Source: Deltaproteobacteria bacterium
GTDB taxonomy: Bacteria; Desulfobacterota; Syntrophobacteria; BM002
Assembly: GCA_020347625.1 (NCBI GenBank)
Contig: CP070735.1
Coordinates: forward strand, 2,932,129 to 2,973,302
Reading direction: 5' to 3'
Length of the DNA stretch: 41,174 nucleotides
Under the pieces are notes generated by a model that worked only from the letters and a program-made list of their open reading frames with translations, was not told the DNA's origin and made no database searches. A program made the translations under genes and the position numbers. Below, in pieces: positions 8,635-34,742 of the stretch. Position 1 is the first letter of the stretch; each line of letters starts with the position of its first letter.

Positions 8635-8701
8635 ATCGTTGACTGTAACCTTTTTCCGTTCTAGAATCTCCCCATGCCATTCCAGCATTGCACAGAAAAG
8701 C

Positions 8702-8730
8702 ATCCAGGCCCAGAGAACCTGGCTTTGAGC
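8702..8730. repeat. Dispersed 29-bp repeat, copy 1
   Basis: Starts ATCCAGGCCCAGAG and ends CCTGGCTTTGAGC. It matches 17775-17803 at 26 of 29 positions in the same orientation. It contains CCAGG and CCTGG as a small stem. It lies about 68 bases past the moaA stop codon. Confidence 0.6.
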
Positions 8731-8731
8731 T

Positions 8732-8757
8732 GCCCCCCAAGGGGGCTTTAGAAGTTT
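8732..8757 (+). terminator. GC-rich hairpin with T tract, probable moaA terminator
   Basis: GCCCCC and GGGGGC pair around CAA, followed by TTTAGAAGTTTTT. It lies about 100 bases after moaA on the same strand. Confidence 0.5.
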
Positions 8758-8777
8758 TTCCTTCGCACGGGAGCCAG

Positions 8778-8872
8778 CTGGAGTAGTGGAGTAATGGAGT
8801 AATGTAAGAACTTTTTAGAGCTGAATCTTGGGGTTTTAGCTTTTTCCAATACTCCAATACTCCATTACTCCA
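8778..8872. repeat. Phrase palindrome D (GGAGTAAT words)
   Basis: Left arm 8778-8804 has three tandem copies of GGAGTAATG-like words. Right arm 8846-8872 has their complement (CCAATACTCC repeated, then CCATTACTCC). The 41-base loop is AT-rich. Together with the 29-bp repeat and terminator it fills the gap between moaA and the kinase gene. Confidence 0.75.
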
Positions 8873-8969
8873 AAACCGCTGGACATGTCTACCGGCAAAG
8901 CCATTGAACTTTGACCTGGCCTGAAGGACCAGTTTTTTCATGTCTAAATAACCTTCCCGGAAAATTGTG

Positions 8970-23192: not shown

Positions 23193-23966
23193 ATGGCTGA
23201 GCCGGGAAGAGAATTTGAGAAGTTGTTGGAACTTGTGGCCCGGCTCCGATCCGAGGACGGCTGTCCCTGGGATCGAGAGCAAACCCCCACCACTATCAAG
23301 CGTTACCTCCTTGAGGAAGTCTATGAATTGATAGACGCGGTGGAACACCGTCACGCTGATCAGGTGGCTGATGAACTGGGGGATCTGATCTTCATGACGA
23401 TTTTTTTGGCGCATCTCTATGTTGAACAGGACCAGTTCCAAATGGAACAGGTGCTCAGCAGGGTGGCAGAAAAGATGGTACGGCGGCATCCCCACGTTTT
23501 CGGGAATCGTCAGGTCGACTCTGCTAGTCAGGTCAAGCTCAATTGGGAAGAGATCAAACGTCAGGAAAGACCCCCTAAGCCTCTCAGTGAGGTTCTCGAC
23601 GCGGTCCCGCGTGCACTGCCCTCACTTATGCGTTCATACCGCATACTCTCAAGACTGGGCCGCAATTTACAGCGACCCCTCAATCAGGATATCCTTCATT
23701 CCCTACTACGCCAATCCTTCTCCATCCTCCTTCAGCAGGGCGACAGCGAAAATGGATCTCCGTTGCAAGATATTTTGGGCAATCTGCTCTTGCTTCTCGT
23801 GGCCTTCGGTCTGCATGAGGACATTCGTGCGGAGGAAGCACTTGCCAGCGGTCTTGAGCGTTTTTGTGCTCAGGTGGAACGCGTTGAAGCCAGTCTAAAT
23901 GCGGCGGGCAAGGATTGGCAGGACCTTTCGGAGGCTGAAGAACGATCGCTGTGGGAAAACCTCTAA
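23193..23966 (+). CDS. mazG: MazG nucleoside triphosphate pyrophosphohydrolase, C-terminal domain degenerate
   Basis: House-cleaning enzyme converting NTPs to NMPs and pyrophosphate. It has the two-domain length (257 residues). The N-terminal domain keeps the metal motif, EEVYELIDAV followed by DELGDLIF. The C-terminal domain aligns in position (LPSLMRSYRILSRLGRNLQ), but where acidic residues are expected it has RQSFSILLQQ and QDILGNLLLLLV, so the EExxE and ExxD metal ligands are lost. In Escherichia coli the C-terminal domain is the active one, so this protein appears reversed. GAGGT lies five bases before the ATG. A nested word palindrome follows the gene. Confidence 0.92.
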   Translation: MAEPGREFEKLLELVARLRSEDGCPWDREQTPTTIKRYLLEEVYELIDAVEHRHADQVADELGDLIFMTIFLAHLYVEQDQFQMEQVLSRVAEKMVRRHPHVFGNRQVDSASQVKLNWEEIKRQERPPKPLSEVLDAVPRALPSLMRSYRILSRLGRNLQRPLNQDILHSLLRQSFSILLQQGDSENGSPLQDILGNLLLLLVAFGLHEDIRAEEALASGLERFCAQVERVEASLNAAGKDWQDLSEAEERSLWENL

Positions 23967-23970
23967 ATGC

Positions 23971-24150
23971 TCCAGCTGGCAGCTGACAGCGGGCAACTGG
24001 CAGCTTCAGACATTTCGCATTACGCCTTTCTCATTTATCACCCTACATCTTGATGAAATAGTTCTTGATTCTAATTGATAATGCGACATGAGAGATGTGA
24101 AATGTAAAATGTGCCTGCTGCTTGCTGCAATCTGCCTGCTGACAGCTGAC
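23971..24150. repeat. Phrase palindrome J, two vocabularies nested
   Basis: Outer arms 23972-24006 and 24112-24150 use GCAGCTGACAGC-type words. Inner arms 24010-24042 (CATTTCGCATTACGCC) and 24076-24111 (GATAATGCGACATGAGAG) use GATAATGCG and GTGAGATG words. The order is mirrored, so the whole region can fold back on itself. It lies between the convergent mazG gene and the SRP RNA, touching the T tract of the latter. Confidence 0.75.
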
Positions 24151-24156
24151 AAAAAA
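24151..24156 (-). terminator. T tract ending the SRP RNA
   Basis: Six T residues on the minus strand follow the closing helix of the SRP RNA after two bases (GCTTTTTT). The closing helix plus T tract acts as an intrinsic terminator. Confidence 0.7.
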
Positions 24157-24158
24157 GC

Positions 24159-24432
24159 CCTTGGCCGTGCACCCCTCGTCGGGTTCAATCCTTCCAGGGA
24201 ACTGTCAGCGTCAGAGACCTGATTAGAGATATCCGCGACACAAACTGCAATACTTACCGCTGCTTCCTCCCGGACCTGACGGGGTTCGTATCCGTTTGTT
24301 GCGCAGTGTCCAATCAGCACCAACCACCGACAGGCCCAAGTCGGACTGTGGCTCTTCGAAGGGAATTCGATCCCGCATAAGCGGATTTCGGGCTACAGGG
24401 CACCGCTAGCTCCCCATCTAGCACGACCAAGG
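24159..24432 (-). ncRNA. ffs: Signal recognition particle RNA, long bacterial form
   Basis: RNA scaffold of the SRP, which targets nascent membrane proteins. The conserved Ffh-binding apical hairpin is at 24253-24287 (minus strand: CAGGTCCGGGAGGAAGCAGC). The 5' end CCTTGGTCGTGC pairs with the 3' end GCACGGCCAAGG over 12 positions with one G-U pair, which defines an RNA of about 274 nucleotides. The 5' part carries GCTAGATGGGGAGCTAGCGG and TGCCCTGTAG, which I recall from long SRP RNAs of Geobacter-like bacteria and which should form the Alu part. The apical tetraloop is GGGA rather than the common GGAA, still GNRA. Promoter and T tract flank it exactly. Confidence 0.95.
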
Positions 24433-24447: not shown

Positions 24448-24540
24448 GCTTCGCTGAAAGCCGATTCCCACCACAAACAGCATAAATAATACAAAACGAC
24501 ATCAGAGATGATGTCGAATCGGCAACATCTCTGGGACCAC

Positions 24541-24700
24541 GGATGTGAGATATGGGATCTAGACATTCAGGAATTGCAAATTTAGGGATTAAGGAATTGA
24601 GCGCGGTCTTGAAAAATCCCTGAATTCCTGAATTTGATCCTCACATCTCAAATCTCACATCAACCATCGGTTTACCTTCTTCGCGCTCTTCGCGGATTTA
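24541..24700. repeat. Phrase palindrome K (GTGAGATG + GGAATTTA + CGCGAAG words)
   Basis: Left arm 24541-24600 reads GTGAGATATGGGATC words, then GGAATTG and TTTAGGGATTAAGG words. Right arm 24612-24662 carries the complements in mirrored order (AATCCCTGAATTCC, then CTCACATCTCAAATCTCACA). A further word, CTTCGCGCTCTTCGCGGA at 24680, follows up to the stop codon of the TraB-like gene. A separate perfect 6-bp hairpin is at 24498-24515. Confidence 0.8.
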
Positions 24701-25440: not shown

Positions 25441-25479
25441 GAGACCTTTCCCGTATAGCCCATCGTTGGTCGCGATTCT

Positions 25480-25625
25480 CCAGCTGGCAGCTGACAGCCC
25501 GCAGCGGGCAGTTTGTAGATTGGTCAACGGTGAATGCCTGAATGCGCCTCCGTTAGGATGCTTTTAATCGCCGTGCCTTTGCGTCTACGCGTCATTCTAC
25601 CTGCCTGCTGCACTCTGCCCGCTAC
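25480..25625. repeat. Phrase palindrome L (GCAGCTGACA words)
   Basis: Left arm 25480-25515 (AGCTGGCAGCTGACAGCC, GCAGCGGGCAG) and right arm 25604-25625 (CTGCCTGCTGCACTCTGCC) use the same words as 23971 and 34613. The right arm begins right behind the J-domain stop codon; the left arm overlaps the open frame before the TraB-like gene. Confidence 0.7.
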
Positions 25626-34566: not shown

Positions 34567-34742
34567 GCGCGTAAGGCTTAGGGCACAAGGCCTAGGGCAC
34601 AAGGAAAATAAAGTTGGCAGCGGACAGCTTGCAGCAAGCAGCCAATATTCATCACGACCTGCCAGCTGCTTGCTGCCGGCTGCATGCTGGGCAAGGGCCT
34701 TTGCCCTGTGCCTTGCATCTTGGCCCTGGCGCCTTGCGCCGT
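34567..34742. repeat. Phrase palindrome P, two vocabularies in mirror order
   Basis: Order is A-B-loop-B'-A'. A (34571-34604): AAGGCTTAGGGCACAAGG words. B (34613-34643): GGCAGCGGACAGCTTGCAGC words. Loop 34644-34657. B' (34658-34689): CTGCCAGCTGCTTGCTGCC. A' (34690-34740): GGGCCTTTGCCCTGTGCC and CCTTGCATCTTGG. It stands between the divergent qrcA and lysR genes, 68 bases before the lysR start. Confidence 0.8.

Follow-up and report, generated by a model that had tools for sequence, protein, structure and literature searches.

A mirrored element of seven-base words between mazG and the SRP RNA gene and its likely relation to intergenic stem-loops carrying IVP genes

Introduction

What is the nested palindrome that fills the spacer between the convergent mazG and SRP RNA genes of this deltaproteobacterium? 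The palindrome lies within the window, i.e. the whole analysed stretch of 41,174 nucleotides of contig CP070735.1. A sequence-only reading had proposed that it may be a barrier between the two genes, or that the region next to the SRP RNA may be a preferred landing site. On the evidence presented below, a different explanation appears rather more probable than its competitors taken together: the palindrome would belong, as an ORF-less copy, to a class of intergenic stem-loops with mirrored arms of degenerate tandem words, 7 or 8 bases long, in which other copies carry a gene for the 23S-rRNA-intervening-sequence protein (IVP) in the loop. The best reading of this class is that it is intergenic and resembles the intervening sequences (IVSs) that interrupt ribosomal RNA, and it is probably mobile. 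If so, the junction palindrome would be a guest next to the SRP RNA gene and not a part of it.

Layout of the junction element

The mazG gene (23193–23966, plus strand; PF03819 at 85.1 bits, NF007113 above its cut-off) converges on the SRP RNA gene (24165–24426, minus strand; RF01854, 146.6 bits), and the element between them (23973–24151) consists of two arms of degenerate 7-base words in mirror image. An outer left arm of GCAGCNN-type words (23970–24007; inverted repeats I1/I2) is followed by an inner left arm of CATTTNN-type words (24009–24041; I3/I4/I9), a 36-nt loop (24042–24077), an inner right arm of NNAAATG-type words (24078–24112; I3/I4/I9) and an outer right arm of NNGCTGC-type words (24113–24151; I1/I2). 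Both left arms show period-7 runs, and the right arms share the run at 24078–24153. The inverted repeats place the mirrored outer GCAGC and inner words just where the sequence-only reading had seen them. Its statement that the right arm ends at the T tract of the SRP RNA is likewise borne out, as six A residues on the plus strand (T6 on the SRP strand, 24151–24156) stand directly after the arm; this T6 follows the closing helix of the SRP RNA (24159–24170 with 24421–24432, inverted repeat I10). That reading did not mention that both arms are 7-base tandem arrays, with lag-7 identities of 0.57 and 0.65 versus 0.25 in shuffles and high values also at lag 14.

The outer arms pair 23973–24004 with 24117–24148 at 72% complementarity or, alternatively, 23977–24004 with 24124–24151 at 79%, while the inner arms pair 24011–24022 with 24079–24090 at 92% over 12 nt. 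A single gapped alignment joins 23973–24040 to 24076–24141 with a global score of 28.6. Shuffling the letters of the right arm never attained this score in 2000 trials (best 19.4), and 19 of 2000 shuffles with intact right-arm heptads did so. Against dinucleotide shuffles, the RNA fold of the element has z values of −4.9 on the plus and −3.1 on the minus strand (−3.4 for either strand when a slightly different stretch is folded), and the DNA fold has a z value of −3.3. The loop has no assigned ORF and no PF05635 match, all four matches of the genome to this family lying elsewhere, and no sequence connects it to an IVP gene. When plasmid DNA was searched with the junction as query, matches were found only at query positions 1060–1238, within the SRP part.

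A second mirrored element, with outer ATGTGAG and inner AGGAATT words, lies 5' of the SRP RNA (24540–24670). Hence, elements of this kind flank the SRP gene on either side.

Word arrays and their mirroring across the genome

Twenty evenly spaced 20-kb stretches were analysed together with the window, giving a sample of 441,174 bases with 361 genes called by our own script and 109,882 intergenic bases. Intergenic counts of exact 5-mer triples were 355 (period 7), 53 (period 8) and 124 (period 14), with zero to two at periods 5, 6, 9–13 and 15. Similarly, 203 period-7 runs were found between genes versus 15 within genes, and the other periods from 4 to 12 yielded 5 to 18 runs between genes, except for 48 at period 8. 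Many arrays are about 4–8 words long and some are much longer. Arrays of period 7 or 8 occur in 18 of 36 convergent, 85 of 190 tandem and 16 of 45 divergent gaps, the smaller share in divergent gaps not being significant (p 0.25).

In the same-genus genomes G399 and G400, 200-kb samples contained 47 and 52 period-7 triples, and same-gap array pairs matched inverted in 3 of 16 and 5 of 13 cases and directly in none and one, respectively. A 200-kb sample of the same-family G405 held 12 triples, with one of five same-gap pairs inverted and none direct, and the same-class G371 had no period-7 triple in 200 kb. A strict pattern of four TATAAC heptads was tried as a marker for the phylum and discarded, since it occurred in only 4 of 395 genomes.

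The mirroring is a property of arrays that share a gap. Among period-7 array pairs from one gap, 37 of 161 match inverted and 4 of 161 directly; for pairs from different gaps, the counts are 121 and 115 of 2980. When period-8 arrays were included and the score was lowered, 41 of 271 gaps held an inverted pair. Where inverted pairs could be compared, seven were nested, two stood side by side and two were crossed. Array pairs of one word family within one gap are opposed in 39 cases and parallel in six, and 38 of the 39 opposite pairs follow the usual order of their family, GCAGC coming first in 9 of 9 and reversed ATAAC in 9 of 10. In base composition, G exceeds C in the 5' arm of 38 of 44 pairs of this genome, 22 of 26 IVP pairs and 18 of 22 GxxExxY pairs.

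The words combine a fixed core with free spacer letters. Neighbouring ATAACNN words differ at 0.10–0.23 of core versus 0.55–0.68 of spacer positions, and neighbouring GCAGCNN words at 0.14–0.15 in CAG and 0.36–0.56 elsewhere; for GCATAGN the contrast is much less clear (0.19–0.40 throughout). As the word seeds were chosen by the analyst, these rates are biased towards low differences at the seed letters. Recent copying of one arm from the other was considered as the source of the mirroring and rejected, because spacer letters agree no better between two arms than between unrelated arrays (matches of 0.56 versus 0.60 with arrays of other gaps; mean percentile 0.43, n=34). Mirrored arrays also fold well: in gaps of 80–320 nt, 20 of each kind being sampled, gaps with mirrored arrays had a mean fold z of −3.17 (11 below −3), compared with −0.34 for unmirrored arrays and −0.37 for gaps without arrays (one below −3 in each).

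IVP and GxxExxY genes between mirrored arms

All four PF05635 genes found in this genome (L237–L240) sit between mirrored word arms, the arm words of these loci being GCCAGTTTA, GCAGC, GCATAG and TGGAGTA. Three of the four were flagged by the array finder; the arms of L237 (inverted score 24.2) were recognised by eye. The IVP gene at L238 is flanked by GCAGC words in the same polarity as in the element beside the SRP RNA.

PF05635 matches are present in 161 of 297 genomes of the phylum, 153 of them above the family cut-off. An IVP set of 34 loci was assembled from the four loci of this genome and the best-scoring locus of each of 30 other genomes. In a first pass over 28 of these, leaving out L241–L243 (no ORF chosen) and L252, L253 and L263 (clipped), 22 had arrays on both sides, and 23 exceeded the cross-locus 95% level for inverted flanks versus four for direct ones; none of seven neighbouring control genes had mirrored flanks. 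A uniform pass then covered 32 IVP loci (without L252 and L259), 29 of 30 GxxExxY loci (PF13366; without L291) and 29 of 30 loci of ribosomal protein L27 (without L308). An inverted flank score of at least 14 was reached by 26 of 32 IVP loci, a direct one by 5 of 32, and 24 of 32 had period-7/8 arrays on both sides. The GxxExxY loci gave 23 of 29 inverted (22 above their 95% level) and 12 of 29 direct; only 2 of 29 had period-7/8 arrays on both sides and 8 of 29 had period-9/10 arrays, the words appearing longer by eye. For L27, inverted, direct and two-sided counts were all 0 of 29. Because the cross-locus 95% level of L27 was 46.2, the groups were compared at a fixed score. As a control L27 is weak, since in its gene-dense setting the flanks often consist of genes.

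None of the 20 IVP loci scanned, out of 30 from the phylum, overlapped an rRNA or any other Rfam family. LSU rRNA itself gave no match in the single-contig, 87.5% complete assembly of this genome, in a search that also missed 4 of 14 control genomes. On plasmids, tblastn returned 29 records with IVP, 28 cyanobacterial and one from Azospirillum. Twelve plasmid loci were examined, of which 11 had an inverted score of at least 14 and all 12 had word arrays of period 6–10 on both sides; the exception, L366, has parallel G-rich arrays. Since cyanobacterial arms have words in common, only 5 of the 12 exceeded the cross-locus 95% level.

Some further loci of this kind were encountered. An integrase or tyrosine-type recombinase is annotated next door in four of the 12 plasmid IVP loci (L363, L367, L368 and L369), and the Azospirillum plasmid locus L372 has an IVP-like stretch between mirrored heptads (601–948) that carries no feature in its incomplete gene table. 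In the source genome, a partial PDDEXK_3 (GxxExxY) gene was found at L236 (G000:C1:3061587-3061787), with 66 of 117 positions matched.

The junction in relatives

The same junction, which the sequence-only reading had pointed to for comparison, was examined in nine relatives with MazG identities of 64–73%, leaving out L029 (36%) and another 70 loci (45% or below). The SRP RNA is convergent with mazG in eight of them, the stretch being masked in L030, and seven (L021–L025, L027 and L028) have period-7/8 arrays in the spacer, made from several vocabularies. The array test was negative for the spacers of L026 and L030; that of L026 holds a GxxExxY ORF, and the words on its two sides are by eye of CGCAGAG type. 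The self-inverse score of the spacer was matched by few of 200 shuffles in L021 (0), L027 (1), L024 (5), L026 (6) and L028 (6), and was unremarkable in L025 and L030 (18 of 200 as good) and in L022 and L023 (127 of 200). By eye, L025 and L028 have GCAGC arms set against the SRP T tract like the source genome.

A MazG tree places L025 among L021, L023 and L024, whose spacer words are different. L021, L023 and L025 are 94.9–96.9% identical in mazG and 97.5–98.7% in the SRP stretch, yet the L025 spacer has no blast match to those of L021 or L023 between these conserved flanks. Between L023 and L025, similarity breaks off within the stop codon of mazG and, on the other side, at the T tract of the SRP RNA, and the spacers of L021 and L023 have two short pieces of 53 and 47 nt in common. 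The junction element of L021 (4792–4976) is 93.5% identical to L025 1167–1351, which is a different gap, about 0.7 kb upstream of mazG, where L021 carries other sequence. Hence, the junction spacer has been replaced, and one element stands at different places in close relatives. At E 1e-10, matches to the L021 element occur in eight of ten genomes, with at least 46 in one of them (40 candidates scored per genome), and the copies have nested outer layers in common by eye. The L021/L023/L025 junction comparisons showed no target-site duplication. A duplication of 5–6 nt near L023 3027–3035, suggested by blast ends (L023 against L021, L024 and L025), was dismissed, as the inserts differ and contain no period-7/8 run.

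L021 4811–4943 and its copies form a 133-nt core repeat with CAAATC arms, nested in TGGAGT arms and further layers. The copy in the source genome is 92% identical over 160 nt at a MazG identity of just 73%, which points to transfer or strong constraint.

The swapped spacer and the arrays of several vocabularies in seven of nine relatives support the proposal that the SRP RNA end may be a preferred landing site. The preference itself is less certain: the junction is not clearly special, given that an array is also present in 204 of 587 intergenic segments of 150 nt drawn at random from this genome. The five tRNAs in the sample were too few to judge tRNA ends as landing sites.

Alternative explanations

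The proposed barrier would be a selected bidirectional 3'-end hairpin that keeps the convergent SRP RNA and mazG transcripts apart. The element does fold on both strands, and the corresponding spacer fold is strong in L021 (z −5.8 and −8.1) and fair in L027. However, it is weak or absent in L023 (1.5 and −0.2), L030 (0.5 and 0.4) and L028 (−0.7 and −1.8) and reaches only −1.6 and −1.5 in L022, the spacer sequence is swapped among close relatives, and the same elements are found in tandem and divergent gaps. An intrinsic terminator for either gene was rejected on the position of the T tract, which is on the wrong side of the palindrome in both directions: the stem is followed by A6 instead of T on the plus strand, and T6 precedes the stem on the minus strand. 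A scan for intrinsic terminators likewise found none within the element. Because T6 is part of the end of the SRP closing helix, and on the wrong side, the barrier proposal is left unsupported, and we consider a selected hairpin of this kind improbable. Still less probable is that the palindrome is an ordinary MITE-like element derived from a DNA transposon. Such an origin would fit the inverted ends, the dispersed copies and the high copy number of a nested family in the genus, but the arms are tandem words of many vocabularies instead of one terminal sequence, the loop ORFs found encode IVP or PDDEXK_3 and not transposases, and the junction comparisons showed no target-site duplication.

The strongest competitor, although itself unlikely, is a by-product of replication, in which 7-base slippage in tolerant intergenic DNA generates the arrays and template switching at quasi-palindromes mirrors them, with neither an element nor a function involved. 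The excess of heptanucleotide repeats in bacteria is ascribed to polymerase slippage in earlier work (PMC4692102, PMC4679880). Moreover, array length varies and the arrays are located where little is lost, lying closer to the upstream stop in 59 of the 85 array-bearing tandem gaps. A fixed core with variable spacer letters, a single polarity and arms that match each other no better than strangers would not be expected from slippage followed by drift or if one arm had recently been copied. Nor does slippage account for IVP and GxxExxY genes in the loops, for a single element at different places in close relatives or for the lack of period-7 triples in the G371 sample.

Relation to known elements

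An IVP/S23p ORF is located in the loop of many, but not all, IVSs, and IVP is an Avd-like four-helix bundle. The junction element resembles the 23S IVSs (PF05635, TIGR02436) in its inverted arms, which are able to form a stem around a loop, and ORF-bearing members of its class encode the same protein family. In contrast to these IVSs, it lies between mazG and the SRP RNA and not in 23S rRNA, the arms of the class are long degenerate word arrays, and the junction copy has no IVP/S23p ORF. The Coxiella study describes a 23S IVS with a stem, an S23p ORF and tandem heptameric repeats beside it, its excision by RNase III, and a solved S23p structure that is a homopentamer (PMC4990558).

It is already known that IVSs can have an ORF and a stem, and that heptamer repeats occur between genes. 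Cyanobacterial STRRs are heptanucleotide tandem repeats, and MITEs and REP/REPIN are small dispersed palindromic intergenic elements. With the heptanucleotide SSRs of Nostoc/Xanthomonas and Beggiatoaceae (TAACTGA), the junction element shares 7-base tandem words between genes; unlike these, the present arrays comprise several words per genome, mirrored pairs, variable spacer letters and small genes in loops. With MITEs and REPINs it shares inverted ends, but many-vocabulary tandem words replace the one conserved terminus. The heptanucleotide excess and intergenic heptamer repeats are on record in two papers, one author already having weighed a repeat-binding protein as the possible mobile part, and the Beggiatoaceae account lists 169 direct TAACTGA sets and one inverted (PMC4692102, PMC4679880).

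PF05635 is reported to resemble Avd, the accessory protein of diversity-generating retroelements (PMC10053308). The L238 IVP matches bAvd at 35.3 bits, below the cut-off of 40, and in contrast to these retroelements the 87.5% complete genome has no RVT_1 (reverse transcriptase) match. The legend of a figure panel showing what CRISPR adaptation modules are associated with lists the 23S rRNA IVP (PMC10910872), and a further paper names GxxExxY beside one reverse transcriptase (PMC8934634). A search of one open library of papers, mostly at listing level, returned no description of intergenic IVP or GxxExxY genes enclosed by mirrored, nested arms of words, nor of their ORF-less kin.

Proposed origin and possible function

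If the junction palindrome is an ORF-less intergenic stem-loop of the IVP-bearing class, the mirrored word elements are probably mobile or selfish, and ORF-less copies would derive from ORF-bearing ones or depend on them. In transcripts of either neighbour the arms would pair to give an RNA hairpin, which RNase III might cleave as it does 23S IVSs, and any effect on the 3' ends of mazG or the SRP RNA would then be a by-product. The homopentameric S23p and the many arrays of about 4–8 words invite the guess that each S23p/IVP subunit could read one word.

Several observations speak against the explanation as a whole. The copy at the junction has no ORF, the junction comparisons showed no target-site duplication, the genome has no RVT_1 match, the self-inverse score of the spacer is unremarkable in L022, L023, L025 and L030, direct matches occur in 12 of 29 GxxExxY and 5 of 32 IVP flanks, and plasmid locus L366 is parallel. 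The controls for the IVP flanks are L27, which is weak, and the seven neighbouring genes. Most mirrored pairs in this genome are without an ORF, so the tie to IVP may be loose.

A broader and more tentative proposal, to which we give somewhat less than even weight, is that much unexplained heptanucleotide-repeat DNA of bacteria represents arms of stem-loop mobile elements. Autonomous forms would encode IVP or, with longer words, GxxExxY and be accompanied by ORF-less kin; their arms of fixed-core, free-spacer words would perhaps be read or copied by an Avd-like protein, and they would invade sites such as the SRP RNA 3' end. This would explain where the degenerate heptanucleotide repeats known from several phyla come from, and likewise the many small genes for IVP/four-helix-bundle and GxxExxY proteins that are found outside ribosomal RNA, and a small IVP-type protein would be expected to bind or act on the word arms.

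Minor observations on word arrays

Runs of N are present in some fetched stretches of the source assembly. Heptad arrays with other words were seen by eye at one Lentisphaerota and two Clostridiales/Bacillota loci (L059, L060 and L065). Within the window, a GCAGC array at 25478–25522 begins with the same 21 nt (CTCCAGCTGGCAGCTGACAGC) as at 23970, about 1.5 kb away, and overlaps a called ORF at its end. The region 34615–34740, inside a stretch that our own script called coding, contains mirrored GCAGC words and an array of CTTG type. Finally, a dispersed repeat about 280 nt long, with mirrored TGGAGTA octads in its interior, has a copy at 8680–8955; at least 49 matches to it were found in this genome at E 0.001 (40 of 90 candidates scored).
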